From: Panaeolus papilionaceus
Lineage: Eukaryota > Basidiomycota > Agaricomycetes > Agaricales
Length of the DNA stretch: 64,000 bases
Direction of reading: 5' to 3'
Assembly (NCBI GenBank): GCA_015501605.1
Contig: JADNRZ010000021.1
Coordinates: 62,001 to 126,000 of the forward strand
Shown here: positions 1 through 17,200 of the stretch, piece after piece
Layout of the letters: every line of letters starts with the position of its first letter
Numbering within the stretch: position 1 is the stretch's first letter
Position numbers and translations under genes: made by a program
The notes under the pieces: generated by a model
The model's input: the letters and a program-made list of their open reading frames with translations, nothing else
Databases searched by the model: none
Told to the model about the DNA's origin: nothing

Positions 1-1557
1 AGGTCCATCGTACCTTGGCATGAATTTCGCGACTCGCTTGGTCCCTTTGCGCTTGTAATTTCGGCGCCTGTTTTCTGTGGACAGCATCACAAGGTCGTCA
101 ACCTTGTAGACCTTCTCCGGTGCGCGATGTTCGTTGGCATGGTATGCTTGTCGAATTTTGGCTGCTGTGAGCGAATCTTGAGCCTGTTGGACATCAATCT
201 GTAACTGGTTGATGACCTCGCGAGCTGTGATCTCAGCTTCAGAGGTGTCACTGGCGAGGGGTGCTAATGGCGGAATGATCCGAGGTGATCTTCCAGTCTT
301 GAGCTGGAACGGAGAGAACCCGGTCGATGCATTGACCGTGTTCATGATGGCGAATCGTACTCGAGGCAGTGTCTTGAGCCAGCCCTTCTGGTTGCGATCC
401 ACGTGGTATCTGATCGCCTGCGTAACAGTTTTGTTGGTGCGTTCACTACTGCCATCTGTCTCAGGATGGTAGGAGGTGGACATCTTCATCCGCACACCGG
501 TGAGTTTGTGTAGCTCGGCCCAAACCTCCGAGGTGAATAGCGCATCCCGATCTGAGATGATGAATCTCATCAGTCCGTTATCACAGTACCACTCGTTGAA
601 AAGAACGAGTGCAGTTTCTGCTGCGGTGATGGTGGATTTTACGGGAATGATTTTAATATCAGCACCTAGGGTGTCGGTGATGGTGAGAATCATGTCGTAT
701 CCATCCTCTGCAGGGAGTGGTCCGACAAAATCCATGGCTATGGTCTCGAAACGGGCATCAGGTACAGGGAGGGGATGTAGAGGACCAGTGGGTTTTGAGG
801 TGCGAGCCTTGTTGCGCTGGCACTCAACACAGGATGGGATGTAAGCCTCCTCAAGATCGCGGCGCATATTTGGCCAGTAATATGAGTGTCGTAGGGTGTT
901 GTAGCTTTTGTCAAAACCAAAATGGCCCAGAATGTCGTGGGCTAGGTGGTATAGTGTCTCTCGGACTTTGGTGTCGGCTGGGATCAGCATCCTCCCCCCC
1001 ACATAAATAAGACCGGCCTCCTCTCGAGTTCCAGGTAGTGCACTGCCCATTTCCAGCCCATGTCGCACCTGTTGCGCGAATGGATCGGTTGCATATCCTG
1101 CCTTGATCTGGTTTATGAACTCTTGATCAGCTTGGATTTCTAGAGTGGTTGCTGCGACGAGAGGGGTGGAAGTGGGTAGGGTAGAAGGGAATGGAGGAGT
1201 CGCTGATGATGAGGTACGGGTGTATGCCAGTGCACATGCTGCGAAGAGGGCGGTGGGTGGATCATCTGGCATGCGAGATAAGGCATCAGCGGCATTGTTA
1301 TCTTCTCCACGGATGTAGACAATGTCAAAATCGAAGTCGGCGATCGTGTTTGTCCAGCGTTTCTGTCTGTTCGATGTATCCTTCTGGGTTTTGAAAAATT
1401 CGAGGGTGCGGTGATCAGTGTAAACCTCGAACTTTGTACCAAGGAGAAAATTGCGCCACTTCTTGAGTGCCTTGATGATGGCCAGGAGCTCCTTCTCGTG
1501 CGTTGGGTAGTTTCGCTCCGCTGGGTTGAGTTGGTATGAGTCGTAGGCCACTGGTCG
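1..1557 (-). pseudogene. Gypsy pol 3' half: RNase H remainder, HHCC and integrase core
   Basis: The reverse strand is open from the insertion junction at 1557 to the window edge. In order it shows the rest of RNase H (YTDHRTLEFF, then NAADALSR); the integrase HHCC motif (H and H in a segment with YYWPNMRR, then CVEC); the catalytic core with MDFVGPLP and SDRDALFTSEVW and a glutamate-bearing TDGSSERTNK; and, near the edge, a stretch ending KRVAKFMPRYDGP that is usual before the C-terminal integrase module. The visible frame has no stop, so this half was probably intact when the DNA transposon landed. It is now cut off from gag, protease and reverse transcriptase. Confidence 0.9.
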
Positions 1558-1585
1558 CATCAGGAAAAACCGGAAATGATTATAA
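1558..1585 (+). repeat. Left terminal inverted repeat of the Plavaka-type element
   Basis: Starts CATCAGGAAAAACCGG and pairs with 14221-14248 on the other strand, with one mismatch in the first 16 bp. The next 230 bp contain repeated AAGTTG, ACTTA and ATAAG words that recur at the opposite end, as expected for subterminal transposase-binding repeats. Confidence 0.85.
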
Positions 1586-1806
1586 TTTTAAATAATGTGT
1601 AATAAGATCAGATAAGTTGAGGCACACATTATCTGAGCTTATGAGGACTTATTGTGACTTACACCATCACAGTCATTAAATTCATTTCCTTATTAAGAGA
1701 TTATTGCCGGTTATGGCAATGTGGCCAATATAGAGCTCAAGTCCAATAGCAGAATAAAGTAACGAAAAGACAATGTGTTCAAAATACAAGCAGATCTATT
1801 TTAATC

Positions 1807-2702
1807 TAATCTTCTTTAGCCTTCCCTTTGCCTGCCTTCTTCGTCATACGGCCAAGAAGTTCCTCCGTCTGTTGAAGCTCGATCTCTAGATCCAAACGTC
1901 GTGCCGCCAGAATCCGGGCCTGCTGATAGGCTTCGTCGTGAGTGAGGCCGGAAGGGGAGGCGATCAATGATAAGAACTCTGATTGGGGTGCAAGTCGACG
2001 AACAGGAGTAGACGGGGCTGGTGGGTTGACTGCAGCGGACGAACGTGGCTGGAATTGCACTGGTTGAAGGGTGGAGGTACTTAATGGTGACCATGAAAAC
2101 CCAGAAGAACAGGCACTTGGAGACGAAATCGGCGAAGGGGACTGTAAATATATGCAATATTAAAATAAAGAACAACAATTTCTTAAATGGAAAATACACA
2201 CCTTAAAGATACGACACTTTTTTCAAAGCTCTACTCTTTGCGGCTTTGCTCATGCGTGGGGGCGTCATGACGTGATCCTTGTTACTTTTTGCCACGAATT
2301 TTCGAGATCCAGAAGCCAAGGCGCTCCTGGAAGACATCGCATAAATAGGCTGTGCAATAAAGTACATATGAGTCAACTCGTAAGTTTGGAGGATGATGAC
2401 AGCAACATACCATGCGAGCCGCAGATGGATGCCTTCTGCATCGGCGACGGCCAAGCCTTCCTGCACAGTTTGGAGAGCCGATGTTTTGTGTTTTAATGGT
2501 CAAGGGTCCCTGGATCAAGAAGCGTTAGATAACTTCACTAAAAAGTGAGTCGATGCTTACCGGTTTTGCAAGAGCGTCAGGAGGTCCTGAATCGGACTCC
2601 TGTCCACAGTCGTTATTATCTGAACCACTTTGATTTAAAGCGGTATCTGCTTCATCCCCACTGTCGCTGATATATCCTCCATCTTTGGGAGGGGGTTGTG
2701 TC
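1807..2702 (-). CDS. Small unrecognised transposon-borne protein (model incomplete)
   Basis: I do not recognise this protein. A likely start is the ATG at 2702 (MTQPPPKDGG), followed by an acidic serine-rich stretch ending near DALAKP, with a GTAAGC donor at about 2560. Middle exons near 2490-2210 are uncertain: one open frame ends in a stop one base before a GTGTGT donor at about 2203. The last exon (about 2142-1807) gives a serine/proline-rich segment, then THDEAYQQARILAARRLDLE and a lysine-rich C-terminus (KKAGKGKAKED), which looks like a short helical or coiled-coil tail. It is divergent from the gene starting at 2907, leaving about 200 bp for a shared promoter. The exon joins in the middle could be wrong, and the gene may be broken. 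Confidence 0.45.
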
Positions 2703-2906
2703 ATCCTTGTAAGATTGAAGATCTGGTCAGAATTAACGACGAGTGAATGAAAAATTTGAGTTTGAGGTGGCGAGCGGAGTTTGTTTACATGAATGGCAAA
2801 TCCCGGACTCCCGTCTACATTTTCCGTTCCGGCAAAAAAACTTCTGGCCACCGTTTGAACCCTGAACGCATTTTAGAGGCAAGAACTCTTCAAAATTTAC
2901 TCCGCA

Positions 2907-4003
2907 ATGCATTCAGACTCGGACATGCAGGCAAAAGTCAAAACGGAGCCTGTGACCCCTACGATCAACTCACATGCCCGCACCGGCGAGCCTCCCAAGC
3001 CAGCGACCCCTGCTAAAAAGTGTGTGGTCATTATCATATACCCTTAATCATAAAAAAAAGATTACTTACTGAATTTGCTTGTAGATCTCAAAAGCCTGGG
3101 CGCGGCCAGGTAAGTATCGCCTCGTTTCACCTTTTTTTCAGCAACTAAGGTAGTAGTACACAGCATCAATACTCGTCCCCTAGTGCCGCGCGCTGGCAGC
3201 ATTTTCCACAACATTCAGTGACGGGGCCTTCTGCGGATATCCTTCAGAATGCAGAAGACAGGTTGGAGGAGCTGCGTGTTCGTCGACGAGCTGCTTCTTC
3301 TTTCTCATTCAATGAAATTTTGTTGACACCAGAGCAAATCGAGGAGATCGAAGATGCTCGTGAAGAAGATGCCAGCTGCTTGCGAGCCGGCGAAACCACG
3401 TTTTTCGAGCGTGCGGTGCGGGGAAGGATTGAGGATGAGCATTGGCGAGCTCATCATCTCATGCCGGCCAAAGATAACTTGAAAGAGGCTCGTCGTCCTC
3501 TCCATGGGCGCAATACTTGTGTTGGGCCAGTGGCGCAGGAGAGGTTGGAGGGTAGCAATAAAAATAACGGATCAGGAGAGCTGGTTGGTGGTGGTGATGA
3601 TGATGATATCGGGCCTGTTGATGGCACTGGTAGGCCTGCTGGCGACGTTTGGATGAGTGAAATAGACCCTAACGAACAGGATGACTCTGACGAACCATGC
3701 CAAGCTCCCACTACTCCCCAACGCCCCAAGATTCGCACCGTCTATTCCATGTCTGCTCCTCATGTCAAGCGTGAGGCATTGCCTTTGAACTCGGCGGAGC
3801 GGACTTTGATTGATCGAAAGAGGCAGGGTGACGAGCAGGCTGCCATTGCGCAGTACAGGTATCTTCACCTAGCTAAAAAAAGGGAGGAATGGATTGGTTT
3901 GGCAACAAAGGAATTGGAGAGGGCTTTTACCTTGGATGATATACGTGGCACGAACTTGGACTCCATAAATGTTCAGGATGTTAAAAAGCGTAAATTAGAG
4001 TAA
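2907..4003 (+). CDS. Unrecognised charged nuclear-type protein carried by the transposon
   Basis: The ATG at 2907 begins MHSDSDMQAKVKTEPVTP. A donor at about 3016 (GTGTGT) joins a short exon (SQKPGRGQ), and a second intron ends before CATCAATACTCG at about 3164; from there the frame is open to the TAA at 4003. The product is about 310 residues: a basic/proline N-terminus, a helical charged segment (ILLTPEQIEEIEDAREE), an acidic glycine/aspartate stretch near residue 190, a helical region (AIAQYRYLHLAKKREEWIGL) and a C-terminal KKRKLE that resembles a nuclear localisation signal. I find no enzymatic motif. Its position between the transposon end and the Spt5-like gene suggests an element-encoded accessory protein; its role is unknown. 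Confidence 0.65.
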
Positions 4004-4169
4004 TTCATATTAGGCTTTACTTACTCAATTATCATATTTACACGTGCTGCAGAACTTTGACTGTTTTTTGGTGGGATGTCGGTGTTGTCTAGCTTTGACA
4101 TGGTGAGTGGTGGTTTAAACAAAGAAGGAGAAAGAAGAAATCTCTCACGAGCGCTGCTACATATGCTCG

Positions 4170-4218
4170 TCAAATCACTGATGGCAAGTCTTGTTGGGCC
4201 TTGCCATTAGTGATTTGA
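4170..4218. repeat. Imperfect hairpin sharing AATCACTGATGG with 7239-7297
   Basis: Arms of 19 nt (TCAAATCACTGATGGCAAG and its complement with one mismatch) flank an 11-nt loop. It lies between the convergent 3' ends of the genes ending at 4003 and 4318. CATATG occurs about 10-12 nt before AATCACTGATGG here, as it does in the second hairpin. The rest of the 4004-4317 gap holds nothing else I can identify. Confidence 0.7.
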
Positions 4219-4317
4219 TTGTGATGGAGTTTCTTCACAACACACACCCTTCATGGCACAATATTTTATACGGTTTATCAAACTTGAATGTACTATATGT
4301 ATGAATAAAAGCCTATT

Positions 4318-6928
4318 TTACCGTTCTCTTTTTGCCCTTAAACGTAGCCTGGCAGTAAGCGGCTGATTACGAGCCTTTTCCACCTGAGATTCCGACCGCA
4401 AAACTACCTCATCTGGCTCCAATAAAAGTACCTCCTCTGTCTCCGTATCAGCCTGTTCCTCGGAGTAGCTAATGACAATACACTGCATAACATGGCGAAC
4501 CCCGTCATAGCGGCTGGTGATACGCCTGATATGAGTGCCGCACCGACTGCCCCTTGTGACTACCATTGGGCCATTGTCACCCCTGTTGTGGACTGGTCGT
4601 CGGGGGTACACCCAGCCAGGTTCAAACCAACACTCCTTCCCTTGTCGCGTCCCTCGGAGCCCCAGAGTCCCGTTCTCCCGTTGCATTACAGTGACCACCA
4701 TGGCCGTCCCCGGGATTCCACCGCCGTGTATGTTCACCTTGAATGTCATTCCTATTAGCTGTTGATCCAGCAGTTCGTGTGTGGGCGGTGCTGTTACTTG
4801 TGTCGGTGAGTTGGCTTCTTGTGATAGTGGCGTCGACGAATTTGGGTCCCAGGCGGGGCTTGATGATGAAGTGCTGACGACATGCATGGGTGTGTGAATT
4901 GAGATTTCATGCGAGGACGCTGAGGCGACTTTCTCTTGAGATCCATTGGCGAGGTCAGAAGCTTGGGTGTTGAGTGGCGTTGCGGTTGAAGGGTGAGGTA
5001 TATACATGTGGCGCGTCATGAAGTACTCTCGCAATTTTTTTTGAGACCTGTGTCAAAAAAAAATCAGAACATCTTTCAAGTTTATCATTGAGCGTGATGC
5101 TTACTCTGGTTCAACAACATCCTCATATTCTAGCGTGATGTCGTGGAATGGTGCATTTGGGTTATACTCCTCGATGCGCACTATGAGGCCGTATTCACTG
5201 TCTCCTCGGTTGAACCAATTTTTGATTGTCCCGTGGCGTCCTTTGTGAGCTGTCTTCACGATTAATACTCGTTGACCGATCCACGGTAGATTTTCCCTCG
5301 GAAGTATTGAACTTTTTGAGGACTGGTTTGCACAGCCGATGAAAGGCGTGGATGAGATTATGGTCCAATTGATGTGTGCCTCAACATGCTATACAGAGAA
5401 ATATTTTGTTAGTATACCCCAAGCCATTGGTAATAATAGTAGTGTTACTTACCGAAACGTCATGATTCCGGGTGTTTACTATCGTAGCAACATCTCCCTT
5501 TAAACTTACAACCCACCCGCTTCTCTCTTTAAAGGGTCCATTTACAATCTCTACATAGTCACCCGTCTTGATCTCCTTACGAAGGGCCTTCCACGGCACA
5601 GAGAAAATACCGCTTTTATCTTCTGCCTCCATCTCGGCGAAAGTCACTTCAATCTTGCGAACACGTCCGCGTCTTCCCGATTCAATGTCCGTGATGAGAT
5701 CATCGAGATGGATGGCCCATTCCTGAGGCTTGGGAGAACGGTATTGCGCAGTCACGACTGATGGGTGATTGCTGGATGCGAATTGAAAGAATGCCGACGA
5801 GGATATGAGAGGAGGGGAGGGTCGAATTCCAAAAAAACTACAGCAGCCTCGCAGTAGTCCGTACTCAAACTTAGACGTGCCCACTTTGTAACAATGCGCC
5901 GACAATTCTTCAACGTCCCACCCACGAGCCTTGGCTTCTTCTGGCTCTAGCCATAGTCGCGGTTCGGGTATATTCTGTAACAGCGACCGCTTTCGTTTCT
6001 TCAGCACACCCCCGACGTCTAACACCTGCTGATTGGTAATGACACTTGGGATTCGAGGTACGACTAATAATTCCACACCCCACGATTCAACCCGCACCAC
6101 CAAACCAATGTCTCCTTCGTATATTGACCCATCCCGAATCGTCACCCACTCTCCAGTGACCGCCCTTTCTGCCCTCCCATTCATACTCAACAGTTTGCTC
6201 CAGTCGCCTTGTGCTATTCCCTCCATCACCGGGCCATTTCGAGTCTTCCTAACGCCCGGCGTCTTCATTAAAATCGCCTTCACGGCTTCGTCCAGCATTC
6301 CTTCGATATACACGTAACCCACGATGGTTGGGCGAACAATGATGCTTGCAATCCTTTCGGATTGAATCTTCTGGTATAGATAGAAGAGGACGTTTTCCTC
6401 ATGTCCTGGCTGCATGGCTGTTAGGATTGTGATTTTGTTTGCTGTAGAAATGTGTATACTCACCTTACATGCTACGCGGTAGATGGGATATGCTGGTGTT
6501 GAAATGGTACCATCGGCTGATCTCCCTGCAACAATTCTCGTATCGGTGGGGCTTTGGTTTAAGCGATTCTGAAGATGCCGTAGAAAAGAAGCCGTTTCTT
6601 CTTCCTGCTCAAGTTCGTCTTCGCGCAACAAATCCGCCCAGGTCTTGTAGGAAGTTGACTCATTGTCGTCTTCAATTTCTTCGGCGATGAAATAACCTAT
6701 GCGATAGGAGTGTTAGTCTCATGAGCTCACTTCAAATCAAATAAATAACAAAACTCCCCTAGACTAGACACTGTATCTTCTGGATCACTCTCAGAATCTA
6801 TGTCCTGGTCATCCACCTCGGCTTCAATGTCAACAAACGGATTAACCTGATGAAAGAGCGGTATCAATTGAATGGATCTACATCAACATGAAAAAAATGA
6901 GGACTTACGCGATGTTTTCGTGGCATAT
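4318..6928 (-). CDS. Spt5-like protein (NusG N-terminal domain plus KOW domains) inside the transposon
   Basis: A multi-exon gene from ATG 6928 (MPRKHR, then GTAAGT) to the TAA at 4318. The N-terminus is acidic (VDDQDIDSESDPEDT), as in Spt5. A 54-nt intron at about 6463-6410 joins VACK to PGHEENVLFYLYQK. Together with the following RPTIVGYVYIEG and a VKAILMKTPGV segment this is a recognisable NGN domain, the part of Spt5 that contacts Spt4 and the RNA polymerase clamp. Next is GEWVTIRDGSIYEGDIGLVV, a KOW domain; further KOW-like modules follow (GDYVEIVNGPFKERSGWVVS; LIVKTAHKGRHGTIKNW). The C-terminus is serine/threonine-rich with a basic end (RAKRER) and lacks an obvious CTR repeat. The length, about 700 residues, is shorter than host Spt5 (usually about 1,000 or more). 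It lies between transposon ends beside the transposase, so I read it as element-encoded. Donor choice near 6750 is uncertain. Confidence 0.82.
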
Positions 6929-7211
6929 GGAATCGAAGACTGTAGTTACTGAGAGGTCATTAGTGAGGGGAGCCTTGTTATCGGTGCAAGATTTGACTCG
7001 TTAGGGCGTTCAAGGGTGCCGCCCATTGTCTGGTATCCACTCCCGACAGTTGTCCTCCATCGCAGTATCAACCCAACTGCAAGAAACAAGGTATTTCTGG
7101 TCTCCGAAATGGGGCGTATATGGGGTGTACATACCTTGTAGAAACACAGGGGAGTATGGATAATATGGTATGACGGTGGTTGCAAAGAAAGAGCGAAAAC
7201 TCAGAACCCTC

Positions 7212-7324
7212 CCACGTCACTGCCTGACTTACTGCTGCAATCACTGATGGGATGGGTTTGAAATTCAAAGTCCGTTGAAATCCCGCCATCAGTGATTCCG
7301 CTAACATATGGTGTGGTGACGTGG
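7212..7324. repeat. Second AATCACTGATGG hairpin with outer CCACGTCAC arms
   Basis: The inner arms AATCACTGATGG (7239-7250) and its exact complement (7286-7297) are enclosed by outer arms CCACGTCAC (7212-7220) and GTGACGTGG (7316-7324). It lies between the start of the Spt5-like gene and the end of the transposase gene. The remainder of 6929-7594 holds no gene that I can support. Confidence 0.65.
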
Positions 7325-7594
7325 CGATGCTGACACCTTTCCCTTTCTCTTCCCTCCCCTCATCTCCCTATCCCATATCCTCGTCACCGTAACTAGCGAT
7401 CTCAACCATACCCTTGTCGCCGTAAACTCGCCGCTCTTGGACTCTTTCTCTTTCACTTACTTGCCCTCATCTGCCTATTCTCGGCCACGATCACCTTCCA
7501 CCAATTGCAAACCTTGCCTGCCGTGCTCAAGGACGTTCATATCATGCGCTGTATATTACCACCTAGTTACGTATATTATCGCAATGCATGGAGA

Positions 7595-10500
7595 CTAGAG
7601 CGTTGCGTAGACATATCTGTCGGAGAAAACGTTCACATAGAAGTGCTCCGATTCGTCCAACACCTTACTGGATGTCCAACCAACAGGGGCTTGAGGCCCG
7701 AATTTGGGGAAAAGGTGGATGCTGGACTTAATTAATTCTATGGGAATGATGCTCGATTTTCTGCGACCATCCCTGTCCACAAGCCGACGAATTTTGTAAA
7801 GTTGGTTGTTTGGATCCCTTGGTGCACGACTAAGAGGGACGAACCATTCCACGTACGCTAGATGATGGAATGGAAAGCCTTGAGGGAACAACATCCTCTT
7901 GCCGGCCTCAGTCAATTTGAAGACACATCGCACCTGAGCTATGCCATAATCTAATGGATCTCATCAGTAAACACGTCGAATTAAGTGAATTAGCATTAAC
8001 CACGCACCAGCGGGAAGATCAGGTATGTCCCCCGATTCTGACTCTTGCTTAACACGGACTAACACAGTGTCGAACCTTCCAGGAATCGTTTTACCATACT
8101 GGTCTTCGTGCTCGGGCTCGACGTGAATTGAATCCACCGTGCTCTCATCAAGGGGATTCAATGCGTGCATATCAAAACTGACAAATTTGATACGATGGAA
8201 GACTGGGACTTTCTGGAAAGGTAAGTGAATCGATCTTGTTTCTCGTTCCAGCTGCGCGTTCGTTAACCCTGGATGGCGATAGCCCGCTACATATCTCCTG
8301 AGAGCGTAAACGAAATCAACTGCACCATATTCGTGTTCGATATCCAACAGTGAGACGAGGCTGCGAGTAGGCTTTACGGTCATGCGCAGGCGCCGTTCGG
8401 GTATGAGAGAAGGAAGAGGTTTTGCAATATGGAGGGGTGAGTTGGATGTGATATTTAATCGTCGATGTATGAACTTGTCATGCTGATTAACTTGTTCTTT
8501 GCGGTGCACCCAGCGCGTCATTTGTGGATACTCATCCTTACAATTGGACGCCTCGTATGCCAGCTTGGTGTAGTCGATGTGGAGACGCTCGGAGTATTCT
8601 GTGTTGAAGTTGTCAGGAGTACCAAAATACTCGATGAAATCTCTGTAGTGACAGAGGTAGTGGAGTTTTGGGATGTTGAAGTTATCCCAGATGCCCAGGT
8701 CGACGAATATGCTTTTATTGTCGTGAAAGATCCGCAAAGCATTATCCATCGACGCAAGGGTTTTGGAAGTGTGGATGGGGAAACGTGATAGCTGCATGAA
8801 GTCAAGGAGGGATCGAACACACCGAACGAGCCGGATGTTGGAGGAGCCGTTGGGAAGGCGGATGTCTATGACGAGGGACAGCAGGAATCGGGATATAAGT
8901 TCGTGTTCTGTACCGCTGACCTGCGAAAGATGGCTGATACCCTTCATAAATAGACGAATATGGTGGTTAGGCGGGAGACGTCGGCACCTGGCGTCAAGCT
9001 CAGCTTCCCCAACAAGCTCCTTGATCCAACCAACCAGGTGTTTGAAGACCCCTTGGTATAGTTGGTGGAGGATATCAGGAGTGATCGCCTGGTAGATATC
9101 GACATGAGGCAAGCGCTTCCAGAACACGGACTGGACGGGCTTAACACCTTGTTCTTTGCACGCATTTTGAAAGGCATCAGCACCGTCGTGCACCTTATCA
9201 AGTGCCTCTATGACAGCGGCAGTTGATCGGGGTGCTCGTTTACTGGTGAGTTCTCCTATGTCAACCCGCGGAGCTGGACAGACTGGACACTGACCCCCTT
9301 TCACCAGCGTGACCAAGAGTTGTTCCGGATAGTCTGCAGGGTAGGCAGACAGAATAGGGAAACACCTCCTAATTGCACCGTCACCGCTGACGAGCATAAC
9401 GCCCTCACGACCTGCCCGTTCCAGGGACTTTAGGACAAAATGCATGCAGTGGTGGAAGAGGTTAGAAAGCGAGCGTCGTCGTGATGCCTTGTTGGTGATG
9501 TGTTCTAGCTTAGATGTAGGAAGGTATGCGAGCAGGATTTGACCCTGACGAGAAGGCTTACGACGTATATGTTTAGGGAGGTTGCCCAGGGTGAGATAAA
9601 CGGGATAGGCCTGCTTTCCCCGAAAATCTGTAACCTGTGTTTTGTCAGATGATATTATGACAGGCAAGATTGTGCACTTGTCACTATGGACGTCGCGCTC
9701 TATGGCCTTCTAAACATAAAATGTAAGCCAATTAAAAAGAAGTGGAAAGACGACAACTCACCTGTGTATTCCACCACCAGCTCCCCGTGTGCATGTCGTG
9801 GTACATCCTTACAGAGCTCTCTGGATCAGCAAAATGGCGTTCAGGTTCCAAAATGAGGTCATCGACGAAATCTGGGTCTCGCCACAGGGTCTGAATGCAC
9901 TCCAAGACATCTCGCGAGTAAAACTCCAGTGCTTCGCCTCCTTGTGTGACCTCCCGTCTCGTAAATCGCAGTCGAGAGGGTAACTTATCATCAATAATTT
10001 TATTGAGCTCATCAGAATTCTTGTATGAAAGCCCAAGACGCTCGCGGAACTGTGAGGTACGTTAAAACTGTCGATAAAATTATTTCCATACAAACATCTT
10101 ACCTCCTCAATAGCCAGCAGCTCCGAAAACGCCGTTGCTCCTGGTCCACGGAGCTTCCCCCAACGAGCAACCTCCCAATCAAGACATGATGCAAATGGTG
10201 CCCACGCGTTATCGCTGCCAACCGTGGTTTTGTAATGTGTGTCTATAGCGCTTCCTTTCTTCATTGACTGACCAGCACGAGACTGAGGATACTTCTCGCT
10301 GTAACGAAGCACAACAGCAGGTTTCAAACCACAACCCTGCGCCATATTGAAGCGGAGATTTGGAATGTCGCCAACAGCTGGCTCTCCGTCTGCTGCCTCA
10401 ACTTCTTCATCGACCACAGATGGATGGTCCACAGGTGCACCCTCTCGCGTCGGCTCCCAGCTTTGCTCAAGCTCAGCCTCCATTCGTGCCACGTCGTCTT

Positions 10501-10930
10501 CGACCTCATCATCTAATTCACCTGGCTCGACAGGATCAAGTCCAGGCTGAAACAATTCCTCATCGGATTCGGGCTCGGAATCGGAATCATCGAAGAAGAA
10601 AGGCACATCTGACATAACCTCGTCCAAATTGGGAGCAGGGTCGGCGTTGTCGATAATACCCGGTGAAGGAGGACCATCGTCAGCGGTTGAGGAGGAAACA
10701 TCAGAAGAAGAATCGGAGTCTGTCGATATCAGAGCAGCGTATGCCACTTCCACAATCCGCTGGATGTACAAATTTTTGCATGGTGTACCATCTGCGCTCT
10801 GAGCAAGATGGTTCTGCAAGCCTTTTGTAGAAAATGAGACCCAGCAGGCAGGGCATTGCCCCTCTTGAGTGTATTTGGAACTGTCGCTGCCAGAGCTAGA
10901 CATAGAGCTTGGGCTGGATGAGCAGTTCAT
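7595..10930 (-). CDS. Plavaka-type transposase
   Basis: The ATG at 10930 opens MNCSSSPSSMSSSGSDSS, then a zinc-finger-like CPACWVSFSTKGLQNHL, an acidic linker, and a region typical of basidiomycete Plavaka transposases: RDPDFVDDLILEPERHF, VRMYHDMHTGSWWW, then PVIISSDKTQVTDFRGKQAY and YPVYLTLGNLPKHIRRKPS. The catalytic-type core continues through GQCPVCPAPRVDIG, HVDIYQAITPDILHQLYQG and a long C-terminal part including FNTEYSERLHIDYTKLAYEA. The final exon (7933-7595) ends VFSDRYVYATL. Introns lie near 10090-10050, 9770-9720 and 8000-7935. The protein is expected to bind the terminal and subterminal repeats and catalyse excision and insertion. No internal stop was seen. The start is divergent from the DUF6532 gene 210 bp away. 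Confidence 0.88.
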
Positions 10931-11141
10931 GTTGGATAAAGGCTAAGGATGAAATCAGTCGTCTGAAAATTAGTGATTGGTTCACCTAGTATGGAAACGC
11001 GGAAGTATATAACGCCCCAGCACAACGAGTACATACAAACACAAAAAATCAGTCGAGTTGGTTCTCTTTCTGTTTGTTGCCCTTGTAAATTTTCACAGCC
11101 CTTCTTTTCTCCAGGACCTGGTTCTGAACGTCCTTGGAACC

Positions 11142-13948
11142 ATGGATCTCTCGGATAACGAATTCAATCGCAACCGATCAGAGGCCCAGAAGAGGATTCG
11201 TCGTAGAAACGAGATACGTGCTGCGCAAGAGGAGATGGATCAGCAGACCATCGCTGCTGGATGAGGTGAATTAATTCATATACGCTGCATTACATATTCT
11301 TAGATATTATCTCTCAGGTGAACGGCAAGCTAAAAAGAATGCTAATGAAAAGGCCAGTAAGTTAATATTCTGTTAGATGGCCTGATAAAATTTTCAGTCC
11401 ATGTCAGTTTGGCGATCAGACAGGCCGTCGCGACGAAGACAAACACCTAGTCGCTCACCGTCACCAGCTCCCAAAAAAAAAAGAAAAGGTATGCCTTTCA
11501 ATTCAAAAATGGCACAACGCGACTGAACTTATTATCCGGATAGACGCTGCTAGCCAGAAAAAAAACTATAGCAGTGCTTCCCAAAAAGGTTCGTCTTTCT
11601 ATCAATGCCTTTTTTTTTTTTTTGCAAGCGATAAACCTTTACAGGTTCCTCACAACGTGTAGGCTCGTCGCATAAGAGTTTTCAAGCCACTCGCCGAAAA
11701 AAAGCAACATTCCCTGATGGTTCTGATGCCGATGTGATGGATGAAGATGCATTAGGAGAAAGTTCTGAAGAGGAAGTGTCAGATGAAGATTACCATCAAG
11801 GCGAGGCAGAACCTAGCGATGAAGCTGATGAAGATGAGGATTTTACAGATGGCGAGCTCCAACGCCAACGAGATGAAGAAGTAATTTTTTTTACCCATTT
11901 TAAATGTTACTGCTGATGGATGTCGGTCATCTAGATGCCCGCCTTCGGGAGTGGAGATGTTGAGGATATTTTCAACGACGATGAAAATGTTGAATTCGTC
12001 AAACGGCCACAACATCGACCTTCCTCCCCAATGGAGTACCCTTCTTCTGCATCTGAACGAGAATCACGCGAACCTAAAAGGCCCAACCCGCCCGCAAAGT
12101 CTTCCAGGAAGGAAAAGGGGAGATCTTCCAAAGTAAGTGATCTAACAATGAGATCAAAACATCATTGAAAATAATCTAATGATAATTATTACCGCAGAAG
12201 GCAATTACTAAGTCATACATCGTGCGTTTGATTCAAACCTGACAACCTGAGCTGAGATGTATCATACAGGACACGAGCGGCGTAAGTGGCGACTCGGATT
12301 CTTCGTTGCCACTCAGGATCCTTCCAGACCGACTCATGAAACCTAAGAAAACCAAGAACAGGAAGGTATGAGAGAAGCCATTGATTGCTCGTCTATCTAT
12401 TACTTACTAACAATAATTCATGATCTAGCGGTCCGATGTTCTTATAAAAAAGGTATTTGGGTCTCTCGTTGTTGAGTAATACCCTAACTGATAATAGTAA
12501 TATCTGCAGCGCGATGCGGCTTTGATATCAGAGGTACGTGCTATTTTTTGTATATCTAAACATTAATTACTTAGAAAGCATCCAAGCGCACGTCCTCTGT
12601 CACCTCCACGACTAGTCAGACATCCAAAGTGTCCAAGAAACAGAGGCGACACGAGGCCTTGAGCAAAACCATAACTATTTCCGACGACGACGATGACGAT
12701 GGCGACCACAATCTCTCTGATGCGAGCATATCAGAACTACCTGTAGATGAAGAATCCGAATGGCCACGTGTTGCAAGACTCCGCCTAGGGAAAGGAATGG
12801 GTATGCTCAAGCAAAACCGGCACATCCTCGCACTCGTGCACCTCGCGATTGATATCGTGACAAAAAGGATTCACCTGGAACACCCATGGCCTGAACACAA
12901 ACAGTATGCCGCATATCGACTGGAGGTGTTGTTGAAAGCCACCAAAAAACTCGCCAAGAAAGACGACTCATACACCACCATCCTTACACGGGCCAAGCTC
13001 GACGCGAAGTTTACTCACAGAGTTGGGAAATGGGTACGTCGATATTAACCATTGCGAACAGTCTCTAAAAATTACCTTTAGTTCACAGATCGCATATCCA
13101 ACATGCGCAATCATGTTATGGCATGCGCGCGACGTGAAATTTGCGCCTACCGTTTGGGGAAGGGTGAGGATTGCATCAAACGTGTTAGACTACTGATGCA
13201 GGATGACGCGTACTGCCACCCTGGAGGATTTGTTACGATGGGACCCGAAAAAAGGGTGCGTAGTGGTTCAATCTTCAACAACGAGTTGGTATTCCTTTTC
13301 GCGGCTTACCAAATGTTGATTTAGCTTGAGTATATATCCGAAAGCACCCCTGCGAAGAACATGAAGTTCCTCAATCCAGCTATAGTCGACACGCTCATTG
13401 AAGCTTTTTTTCTCAATTCCACTTCCTCGGGATGGAAGTACCATGACACGTACGTCATGTCCCTTCCAGATAGGCCGGAGTATCCAGAACCGGAGATTCC
13501 GATGTGTATGCTTGCATTGGCTGCAACTGCTGTGAGTCTTCTGTGTTACGTGTCCCCGTTTTTATTATTCTGATTGTAATGTTAAAGGTGCGAGCTGCAA
13601 TATGGGAGATGCGCGAGGGCAAGGTTCCAATTCCCCAAAAGCAAGCGAAAAAGACAGCATCGGAGGATGAGGTCGTTCAAGACCAGTTCACCGCAGAATC
13701 AGCTGTAGGAGTGTACCAAGGGCACATCGATCATCTCGAGGAGCTGAAGAAAAAGGGGAAAGTCACTTACCACAAGTTGATGGCTGGGATCTTCAAGCAA
13801 GCAAAGTAAGCAGAACCTTTTTCCTATCACAACATTACTAATTCCTTTTTTCTTCAGGGCTCGCGTCAAGGGTGGATCTTCGGTACCAGAAGGAAAGTAT
13901 ACTAGTGCTCCTCTCGCCGGAGTGGATACTAGTTTTTTGGAGAATTAA
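11142..13948 (+). CDS. DUF6532-type protein carried by the transposon
   Basis: A many-exon gene. The N-terminal exons encode basic and then acidic low-complexity sequence (RKRIRRRNEIRAAQEE-like start; SRSPSPAPKKKRK, a probable nuclear signal; an Asp/Glu-rich stretch near 11740-11880). The C-terminal 250 residues match DUF6532: RHILALVHLAIDIVTKRI, RISNMRNHVMACARREI, IVDTLIEAFFLNSTSSGW, EIPMCMLALAATA followed by AIWEMREGKVP, then VYQGHIDHLEELKKKGKVTY. The stop is at 13948. DUF6532 proteins are common in Agaricomycetes and have no known biochemical role. One problem: the first exon (ATG 11142) runs into TGA at 11262-11264 just before a GTGAAT donor, so it may carry a small mutation or the true first exon differs. 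The link to the transposase is by position only. Confidence 0.7.
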
Positions 13949-14220
13949 ATAGTTGAATGTTCGGCCGTTTCTAGTCAATGAATTAAACCCCCCCCCTCTC
14001 TCGCTACTTGTTTGATATTATAAGAGCTTAAGGATGATTTCTTGCACATTATATGGTTCTTTTCTATAGTTTTGACCCGCTTACATTCAGCTTAACCTGA
14101 CTTTTTGATCTTGAATAAGGTGCATCCATTCCAGGACCTACATTATCCTAGCTTATTCATCTTATTTGACTTGTCACAACTTAAATCAACTTAAGATAAC
14201 TTGTATCTACTTATGTACCT
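13949..14220. other. Subterminal region of the transposon, no gene
   Basis: A short run of C, then AT-rich sequence with repeated ACTTAA/CTTATT words approaching the right terminal repeat. No open frame of interest. Confidence 0.6.
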
Positions 14221-14248
14221 GTATAAGAAAAACCGGTTTTGCCTGATG
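14221..14248 (-). repeat. Right terminal inverted repeat of the Plavaka-type element
   Basis: Read on the minus strand it starts CATCAGGCAAAACCGG, matching the left end. The adjoining 14095-14220 is dense in ACTTAA, CTTAT and AAGTTG words, the probable subterminal repeats. Confidence 0.85.
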
Positions 14249-17200
14249 CGAGCTGTCTCCCATGACTCGCCGAAACTGAGAACTGCACCTGTTCGCCTGT
14301 TACTGGCATCTGTGGTGACGAATATCTTCTTTGTTGGATCATTGTAGTCAATAACTGTCAGACATTCAGTGCTTGTAGCCAGGCGCTTGATCTTGTCGAA
14401 CGCCTGCTGGTGTTCTGGTGTCCATTTTGGGAATTCCTTGTCAGCTTCCACTGTGGTGAGAGGAGTGAGAACACTAGTGTGTTCAGCCAACGATGGCATG
14501 AAGGCTGAGAGATATCGAGATAACCCTAGAAATCCTCGTACATTGGTTGATGTTGTTGGTACTGGCCACTTCAGAATTCGATCAGCCTTCTGTGGATCAG
14601 CGGAGATCCCTTTGCTTGAGACAATGTGGCCCAGAAAGTTGATTTCGGTGGAGAATAGCAGTGTCTTCTTCAGGTTACAGTAGAGTTTAGCCTTTCGCAA
14701 GGCTTCAAGAACAGTACGAACATTGCGCTCGTGCTCTTCAATGGAGTTGGACCAGATGATGATGTCGTCCAGGTAAACATGACAAATGACCCCAAGAAGA
14801 GGTCGCAGGGCATCTGTCATCCTCCGCTGATGTGTAGAAGGAGCGTTGCATCCTCCCATGGGCATCACAGTCCACTCGTAAAGGCCCCAAGGAGTTCGAA
14901 TTGCTGTAAGGTGGATGTCGTCAGGGTGTACCCGAGTTTGGAAGAACGAGTTTGTCATGTCCAGCTTCCCGAAGATCCTGCCTTTACCGCAGTCAGCTAG
15001 AATTTCATCAACACGGGGGAGTGGGAAGTTGTCGCGGATAGTGTTGTCGTTGAGCTCTCGGTAGTCAATGACCATTCGACAGGGAACTGAGTCATCAGTC
15101 ATCCCATCTTTACGCTTTGGAATGAGAAAGCAAGGGGAGGCGTGTTCTGAGGATGAGGGTCGGAGCCGTCCAGCTGAAATGTGTTCCTCTAGCAGTAACT
15201 TCCACTGATCATGGTATTTCTTGGGTGCACTGTATCCTCGACCACGAACAATCTTGTCCTTGTCACGAAGGCGAATTCGGTGGTAGATGTGATCAGGCAT
15301 ACTACTGACATCCGGTAATCGTGTTGGGAATAGGTCAGTATATTCGTCTTTTAATTTCTGGTCTTGTTTCCTAAGTTCTTCCTGAAAGACCAGGGTTTCA
15401 ATCCGAGCTTGCACAGCTGCCACAATCGCTCGAGCCTCGTGACTGCTGGTAGTGCGTTTTTGCGGTTCAGGTGGTGGAACAGGGCGAGGTTTGGGAGGAG
15501 TGAGAGGAGGGATAGTGCGTGGAGGTGCCCAAATACGTTTGGGGACAGTGGTGTTTGCAAGGTTGTATCCAGTGTCACGAACAATAGCAGTGCGTTTCTC
15601 AACATCAAGAACAATATGTTCAGCATGAAGAAATGGTATTCCTAGTAGTAATGGTACAGGGAGTCCAACATTGACCTTGGCTCTATGTACCTGAGACACC
15701 CATGAACCTTTGCCTGATGTGACCTGCAACTTCACGTATTCAACACTCTCCAATGGCGTTCCAGACAATGACGACAGATTATCCTCCTCTTTGGGAAGAG
15801 GGAATCGTCGCAGGCCAAGCTTCGTTACAAGCTCGTCGCTAATCACTGTAGAGGGACAACCAATGTCAGGCAAAGCCTTAACTGAGAGTGGAAATGTGGA
15901 AATGGAGGGACCCGAAATTTCGAGTTTAAGGTAAAGGTGGGGCATGGTGAAAGGAGGGGTGTCAACGGAAGGAGAGGCGTACGTGTCATCGTCATAGTAT
16001 CCATCATCGTCAGAGTCCCATCCAGCATGTTGGGTCTTGTCAGACACAAAGGCGACAGAAAGGCGATTTATGAGGGAAGGTTTCGATGCTGGGTCACCTG
16101 GTTTACGCTGCGTAACAGGGATATATGTAGCAGGATCTGGCCAGGTGTTGGTGAGAGCCATTGGACAGGTGTTTGAGCGATGACCAGCCTTCAACACACG
16201 ACAGCGAGTGCATCTGTCGTGAGCATCAAGCAAGGCACGCTCCTCAGCAGTGAGGGCAGGCAGACGAGTGCGCCGTTGATTACGGTTTGCAGAAACAGGA
16301 TTGGATGGAGCAGCAGTATGAGATGGGGAGGGAGCGTTGGAAATGCGTTGAGCGAGGGTCTTGTGTTCACGATATGCCTTGCGGTCCAGTGTCAACCTTT
16401 CATCCATCCTTTCTTCATCATCCCTCAGCCTCTGGTCACGCTCTTGGACCTTGGCAGTCCAATCCTCATACGAGACACTGGCAGGGATAGGATCGGTGGT
16501 CAGCGAGCGGCGTAGCGATTCCCGGGTGCAGGACTCCATCTGATCACGGAGGGACTGTTCAGAGAAGTGCTGGTTCCGACTGGAGAGCTCTAGAATAGCG
16601 TTGAGCGTCTCTATCTTGATTCTCCAGTCGTGAAAACGCTGGTGAGGGCCTTGGCTGGACGTTTGTATTTGAGTCCTGATTGGGAACTCCCAGTTTGGGC
16701 TGAGTGCGAGGGTGGCAAATTCGGAGATGTACGCTTTGAGGGTGAGTTTGTCGATCTGTTTGTGATCGGTCATGTACCACCTCACAAAACGAGGCTCCAG
16801 AGTCGCATCAGCGACTAAACACACCACATCCTTGTCTGGATCTTTGCCTGATTGCTTAGCGAAGCGGCGACAGGCATGGTACCAGTCGAGGATGTCCTCG
16901 GGCTCCAGTTCACCTGCTGCCAACGTAGGGCAGTCCTTGAGCTTTGAGCCTGGGATCACCTTCCCCTGTTTCTCGGTTGGCATGTGGCGACGTTTTTGTG
17001 ACGAGAGTGGATGTGTGGGAGCGTGATCGGAATCGCTAGAGCTGTCAGACTGAGATTGAGCACTTCCGGCTGGTTGGACAGGTGTGGCCGGGGGTGGAGT
17101 TCTCGGCGATGGAGGAAGGGGTACCATTAATGCTGTTGGTGATGGAGGAAGCAGAATGGATAGTCCCGGGATGACAGGTGTCTGGGATAGGGCAGTGTGC

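Follow-up and report, generated by a model that had tools for sequence, protein, structure and literature searches.

A full-length paralog of the transcription elongation factor Spt5 is a standing accessory gene, kept under selection, of at least three kinds of transposons with mapped ends in Panaeolus papilionaceus. The common view is that transposons rely on the transcription elongation machinery of their host. The window analyzed here is a stretch of 64,000 nt (C14:62001–126000; labels of this type denote sequences of the assembly, and the C14 copy below is the one outside the window) from the 50.85-Mb assembly of this member of the Agaricales, whose proteins are designated BJ165DRAFT_*. 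An initial annotation of the window had described an Spt5-like gene inside a 12.7-kb element, and we find that the gene is Spt5-like over its whole length and that the element is a complete transposon of 12,691 bp. We lean toward the reading that this paralog of old capture would act as an RNA polymerase II elongation factor serving the element, with a palindrome beside the gene as a candidate cis element.

The features of the window element are collected in table 1. Plavaka transposons were reportedly first described by Iyer et al. in PNAS in 2014. The transposase in the window is a Plavaka transposase (PF18759, E 3.2e-85, with the N-terminal portion of the domain in the smaller of its two ORFs), and in silico removal of the element restores the frame SWETARPVAYDSYQLNPAERNYPTH of a Gypsy pol gene. 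The Gypsy retrotransposon split by the insertion occupies window positions 1–1557 and 14249 onward. PlavakaB elements are described as having CATCA..TGATG termini and a duplication of 2–3 bp (Kojima 2025, PMC12730594). Because its ends and duplication fit the class as defined there, we assign the window element to the PlavakaB type; such termini with 2-bp duplications are found in four copies. The ORFs of the element scanned beyond the transposase, Spt5-like, and DUF6532 genes gave zero Pfam matches, and Spt4 was not seen among the window ORFs scanned. A known RNA family inside the element was rejected because an Rfam scan of the element gave two matches only, both far below the gathering score.

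Table 1. Features of the window element and the complete Plavaka carriers of the Spt5-like gene (positions are those of the window unless a C label precedes them)
Feature	Location	Strand	Remarks
Complete PlavakaB-type transposon, 12,691 bp; Plavaka carrier	1558–14248	.	Duplication CG; assigned by ends, 2-bp duplication, restored pol frame, PF18759, and terminus classes
Target-site duplication CG, left copy	1556–1557	.	
Target-site duplication CG, right copy	14249–14250	.	
Left terminal inverted repeat	1558–1573	+	CATCAGGAAAAACCGG
Right terminal inverted repeat	14233–14248	-	CATCAGGCAAAACCGG (minus strand)
Further gene	1806–2872	-	ORFs 1806–2159 and 2525–2872; no Pfam match
Accessory ORF	3149–4003	+	Resembles ORFs of the C14 and C45 elements
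Second palindrome	4173–4215	.	Same arm with one mismatch; downstream of the Spt5-like gene
Spt5-like (NGN-KOW) gene	4318–6926	-	Six exons, 772 aa; BJ165DRAFT_1558794; NCBI model P0002 fits the six exons (6926–4321) letter for letter, stop at 4318
Exon 6 of the Spt5-like gene	4321–5046	-	CTR-like repeat (SPAWDPNSSTP) and KOW6-KOW7-like pair
End of exon 3, intron, and exon 4	5453–6464	-	End of exon 3 (6464), 54-bp intron (6463–6410), exon 4 (6409–5453), which encodes most of the NGN, the KOW1-linker, and the KOW at residues 354–427
Palindrome AATCACTGATGG-N35-CCATCAGTGATT	7239–7297	.	313 bp upstream of the Spt5-like start codon
Plavaka transposase gene region, approximate extent	7595–10942	-	PF18759 in ORFs 9732–10061 and 7964–9709
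DUF6532 (PF20149) part of accessory gene	12845–13537 (= C14:74845–75537)	+	
Plavaka carrier, same terminal inverted repeat	C4:1638490–1651113		Duplication TG
Plavaka carrier, same terminal inverted repeat	C14:532699–545046		Duplication TC
Plavaka carrier, same terminal inverted repeat	C45:1894990–1908206		Duplication GA

Sequence profiles and the predicted structure support that the window gene encodes a protein with Spt5 architecture. The Spt5-NGN domain scores E 2e-11, and the protein has multiple KOW domains, including the KOW1-linker and a C-terminal KOW6-7 pair. A profile made from five transposon-type proteins, with canonical Spt5 excluded, retrieved Spt5 chains from fungi, humans, and archaea (lowest E 7e-36, positions 4–421) and also matched the plant protein 8hyj (E 3.5e-15), which we take to be SPT5L/KTF1. 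The N-terminal region, acidic by eye, aligns with Spt5 chains in the profile alignment from position 3–5 onward and matches PF11942 below the cut-off (E 0.005 and 0.0004). The predicted model (mean pLDDT 61.5, pTM 0.37; domains usable, linkers poor) was compared with known structures by running VIA-align on the Foldseek top 1000, and the best 50 of the 996 PDB chains aligned are all Spt5/NusG or complexes containing them; the NGN matches 2exu, the KOW1-linker 4ytk, and residues 619–749 human KOW6-KOW7 (5ohq). The NGN fold read in the initial annotation is thus supported by both profile match and structure comparison, and a chance or weak NGN match was rejected by the NGN score, the profile search, and the structure comparison. 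Between the KOW5-like and KOW6-like parts lies a single CTR-like motif (SPAWDPNSSTP; AWDPNSRTP in C26) that resembles the unit of the C-terminal tandem array TPAWNVSSRTPNPYA of host Spt5, so that one AWDPNSxTP repeat stands against a tandem array in the host. Given the domain and structure matches and this one motif, the window protein is a whole Spt5, more than an NGN domain, with the CTR down to one unit.

A six-frame search of the genome with P0002 gave 54 matches, which were grouped by hand into at least 18 Spt5-like loci besides host Spt5, a lower bound. The gene is thus not confined to the window copy. Ten of these loci lie inside mapped end pairs (four Plavaka, four EnSpm/CACTA-like, and two of a third kind), three more have one matching Plavaka end nearby (two on C10, and C45:47043), and five of the 18 have no carrier assignment. 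That the gene is a feature of Plavaka holds for four complete copies, which carry it between their ends, and does not extend to Plavaka at large: among the 23 PF18759 matches above 150 bits, four share an element with an Spt5-like match, at a distance of 2.2–2.6 kb, and around the other 19 no Spt5-like match was seen out to 15 kb, the one exception being C31:156467, with a neighbor 6.3 kb away that we assigned to an enclosing element of the third kind. Association with every Plavaka was therefore rejected, and the gene marks one Plavaka subfamily. Nor is the gene restricted to Plavaka, since it is also carried by an EnSpm/CACTA-like lineage, whose ends differ, and by a third lineage. A genome scan with PF03439 gave 24 matches, which comprise host Spt5, 11 of the at least 18 loci, and 12 members of remoter families. 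These remoter NGN-KOW families occupy about 12 places in the genome and showed no consistent adjacency to Plavaka or KDZ (12 PF03439 loci, three of them inspected closely); KDZ transposons were rejected as carriers of the second NGN family because no consistent neighbor was found among 134 KDZ matches.

The EnSpm/CACTA-like element is about 10.9 kb long, and its copy at C17:276346–287187 has perfect 24-nt CACAGGGGGCAATCCTCTGTCAGG ends of the CAC..GTG form flanked by a 3-bp duplication, TAA. A genome search with the 19 outermost bases of this end gave exactly eight matches with up to two mismatches, which form four pairs (C17, C25, C26, and C45); another seven, with three mismatches, have no partner, and one match at up to three was obtained in the reversed control. 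The C45 pair spans 55 kb and thus evidently carries insertions. All four pairs enclose both an Spt5-like and a transposase-like gene, located at opposite ends of the element. The attempt to name the C17 transposase through Pfam or NCBIfam yielded nothing, as the ORF has no match in either, and an hhalign comparison with Plavaka, which aligned the C(2)C segment, gave a probability of only about 1%; CMC-type motifs (D, D, C(2)C, H, and E) were read in the ORF by eye. Because the ORF has no Pfam name and its motifs were read by eye, the EnSpm label rests mainly on the ends and the duplication size. Association with every relative of this transposase was rejected as well: of nine remoter relatives (32–36% identity), eight have no Spt5-like match within 15 kb and one, C33:86996, has a match 12 kb away.

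Elements of the third kind have CATCACTAAATT ends and are represented by C67:1731291–1753656, with an AC duplication and 16 of 20 terminal bases matching, and by C31:145057–185172, which was located by searching for the end sequence. The end pattern (16 fixed bases) has six exact matches in the genome, which form three pairs. The third pair, at C13:405002–405515, is 0.5 kb apart and probably represents a non-autonomous derivative. The C67 element encodes a distant Plavaka-type transposase (PF18759, 51.6 bits), a type also matched in the C31 copy in the PF18759 scan, and a TET/JBP-like ORF (C67:1737403–1738230, minus strand) with weak matches below the cut-off (PF12851, E 0.013; PF13640, E 0.002). 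Two regulator-type genes, TET/JBP-like and Spt5-like, thus occur in one element beside a Plavaka-type transposase ORF. A KDZ transposase match is nested in the same element (C67:1748606–1749431).

Relatives of the protein are not limited to Panaeolus. At least eight divergent proteins of the Spt5 type were found in Dendrothele bispora (P0006 and another seven with 47–83% identity to it, encoded on contigs that all eight differ in length, and surveyed as proteins apart from their genomic context), and one in Stygiomarasmius scandens. Four of the eight Dendrothele proteins were scanned; NGN scored above its cut-off in all four and KOW in three. Initial sequence searches beyond Panaeolus, limited by word sharing, returned one Dendrothele protein and one contig only; canonical fungal Spt5 was also missing from the results, so these searches were not exhaustive.

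To place the transposon proteins relative to host Spt5, we built an IQ-TREE tree of 15 rows, including eight transposon-type proteins (counting P0005), three canonical Spt5s, and four others. Host Spt5 and the two PDB Spt5s group together (99/97), and the eight transposon-type proteins and one Dendrothele protein lie apart from canonical Spt5 (99/97); the eight transposon-type rows alone are together in 84% of bootstrap trees (78/74). Three additional NGN rows sit on the side of the canonical Spt5s, and the tree has some long branches. None of the transposon rows groups with the single-copy Spt5, and recent local capture from host Spt5, which the initial annotation had named as the contrary case, is rejected by the tree. 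In the core, host Spt5 is 51% identical to 8qsz and about 26% identical to the window protein. A phase-0 intron interrupts the window gene (VACK/PGHEEN, with the slash marking the intron after K and before PG) and the host gene (VRVK/PGKERE) at the same position and in the same phase, and the C26 gene has a matching intron (VACR/AGMEEE). This common position and phase suggests that what was captured, long ago, was a genomic Spt5 gene with introns. We take these sequence comparisons to have shown that the transposon gene descends from an intron-containing Spt5 by an old, DNA-level, non-local capture.

Copies of the gene with measurable dS that have diverged are under purifying selection, with dN/dS of 0.09–0.15 in six pairs. 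These ratios were calculated by the Nei-Gojobori method on the large NGN-KOW exon of seven copies (21 pairs); dS is saturated in 14 of the 21 pairs, and nearly so where it exceeds 1.6, and dN/dS was obtained for seven pairs. The values are 0.09 for window-C14 and C4-C14, 0.10 for window-C45, 0.11 for C4-C45, 0.14 for C17-C26, and 0.15 for C14-C45, in which dS is only 0.23. The youngest pair, window-C4, has a ratio of 0.30 from very few changes, and 1.33 for its transposase, also from few changes.

The exact pattern of the palindrome, TCACTGATGG-N10-40-CCATCAGTGA, occurs at eight places in 50.85 Mb, where plain arithmetic expects 0.001 and the reversed control gives 0. All eight are inside carrier elements (for C10, one element end was mapped), and six are upstream of an Spt5-like gene (window, C4, C10, C14, C45, and C26); of the remaining two, one is downstream of the gene in C45 and one inside the long C45 EnSpm-like element. 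A near copy is present downstream of the gene in the window and C4 and absent in C14. C17 has a variant in which the change is made on both arms. Between C26 and C17 there are ten differences over 45 positions, seven of which are paired in both copies, and the predicted stems have 47 pairs in C26 and 46 in C17; in C45 the center is inverted relative to C14. The palindrome adjoins the gene both in Plavaka, with a tandem transposase upstream, and in EnSpm-like elements, with a divergent neighboring ORF; it thus follows the gene and not the transposase. The C67 copy has no palindrome with up to one mismatch, and none with 12-nt arms in C67:1740500–1745500, and C25 and C31 have no exact match. A looser pattern is found at 17 places, the same eight and nine others, against 0 in the reversed control and about six expected from plain arithmetic. 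Three of the nine have something related in the vicinity: C6:301464 is close to a Plavaka-type end, C23:2208389 is 1 kb from an EnSpm-like transposase relative, and C11:253769 is 5 kb from a second-family NGN match. Alternatively, the palindrome could serve the promoter, transposase binding, or replication, or gene conversion could maintain the similarity of its arms in the absence of any function.

Judged from these data, the likeliest role of the protein is a putative one in element-specific elongation or anti-silencing. Its NGN domain would bind elongating RNA polymerase II, probably with host Spt4, and the protein would keep the polymerase moving through an element of roughly 11–13 kb that is probably methylated and silenced. 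With one CTR-like repeat where the host has an array, it would be independent of the host factors that the CTR recruits. RfaH requires ops and LoaP a leader hairpin, and the palindrome is a candidate for a comparable cis element in the expression or loading of the Spt5-like protein. Anti-silencing is favored by the TET/JBP-like ORF that accompanies the gene in C67 and by the published idea that such ORFs act against methylation (Kojima 2025, PMC12730594). By analogy, one may tentatively go further and picture a selfish module for processive transcription, in which an element-borne Spt5 and the palindrome that loads or expresses it would have spread among unlike DNA transposon lineages as a eukaryotic counterpart of RfaH/ops or LoaP/hairpin; we regard this extension as doubtful.

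Instead of assisting elongation, the protein might be a competitor or decoy that displaces host Spt5, or a transcription complex linked to silencing, from the polymerase and thereby blocks co-transcriptional silencing. Such a protein, having no host CTR array, could bind the polymerase without recruiting CTR readers, and both the match of the transposon profile to a plant RNA-directed DNA methylation protein (8hyj) and the action of the Paramecium Spt4-Spt5 complex upstream of noncoding RNAs (PMC8934623) would accord with it; however, neither the full architecture with its C-terminal KOW pair nor strong purifying selection, measured on the NGN-KOW exon, would be needed for a decoy, and we consider it unlikely. 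Passenger cargo, that is, a family of host Spt5 paralogs swept up by transposons and kept for the benefit of the host or not at all, seems improbable, because the gene lies between the ends of three unlike kinds of elements, selection persists across deeply diverged copies, and the carried genes are apart from host Spt5 in the tree; the 12 further PF03439 matches without a mapped transposon and the five nearer relatives without a carrier do leave room for ordinary host paralogs among the NGN-KOW genes, and the Dendrothele proteins are known without genomic context. A transposition cofactor, bound to polymerase or DNA, that couples transcription to excision or helps to assemble transposase on the palindrome or ends would suit the adjacency of gene and transposase in Plavaka and the binding-site-like palindromes that bracket the gene in three Plavaka copies (window, C4, and C45), but is quite improbable given that only the four of 23 strong PF18759 matches have the gene in the same element, that in EnSpm-like elements the gene is at the end opposite the transposase-like gene, and that the palindrome adjoins the Spt5-like gene in both arrangements.

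Capture of regulators, namely TET/JBP, by Plavaka and EnSpm elements is already known, and Spt5-like cargo is without a report in the literature searched: in the open-access literature, judged mostly by title and abstract and with subscription papers largely outside its range, we found no transposon-borne Spt5. That DNA transposons of three kinds themselves encode a full-length Spt5 means that elongation may be contested between elements and host, and suggests that the elements may come equipped for their own transcription. It makes testable, in mushrooms, how long, methylated elements get transcribed, and the diverged paralogs are a natural set with which to separate the parts of Spt5 that serve the polymerase from those tied to the host pathway linked to the CTR.

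We know of no likeness to Spt5 in VANC of the Arabidopsis VANDAL transposons. Like the putative anti-silencing role proposed here, VANC is a case of an element-encoded protein that counters the silencing of its own element, but it is described as a sequence-specific anti-silencing protein (PMC10398659, PMC5735166). TET/JBP dioxygenases of Kyakuja, Zisupton, Plavaka, EnSpm, and other elements, PlavakaB included, are likewise regulator-like genes captured by several lineages of fungal transposons, for which a function as anti-silencing genes of fungal DNA transposons has been proposed (Kojima 2025, PMC12730594); here, in contrast, the captured gene is a polymerase II elongation factor, and the words "elongation" and "spt" occur 0 times in the main text of that article. 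Canonical Spt5/DSIF shares with the transposon protein the NGN, KOW1-linker, KOW4-like, and KOW6-7-like parts, the N-terminus acidic by eye, a CTR-like repeat, and the intron position and phase, whereas the transposon protein is about 26% identical to that of the host, has one CTR-like repeat, and is mobile and multi-copy. The bacterial NusG paralogs RfaH, LoaP, and ActX are second members of the NusG/Spt5 family devoted to a small number of operons that are long or were acquired horizontally, with some of them on plasmids (PMC7819879); they differ in being bacterial, and "transposon" occurs 0 times in the main text of that source. Spt5-type proteins devoted to the transcription of silenced or transposon-rich DNA are described in plants (8hyj, RNA-directed DNA methylation 3) and Paramecium (Spt4-Spt5; PMC8934623), but there they are host genes that work with the silencing machinery and not genes of the elements. 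As far as these sources describe them, the specialized bacterial NusG paralogs and the plant and Paramecium Spt5-type proteins are the nearest working parallels to the transposon-borne Spt5.
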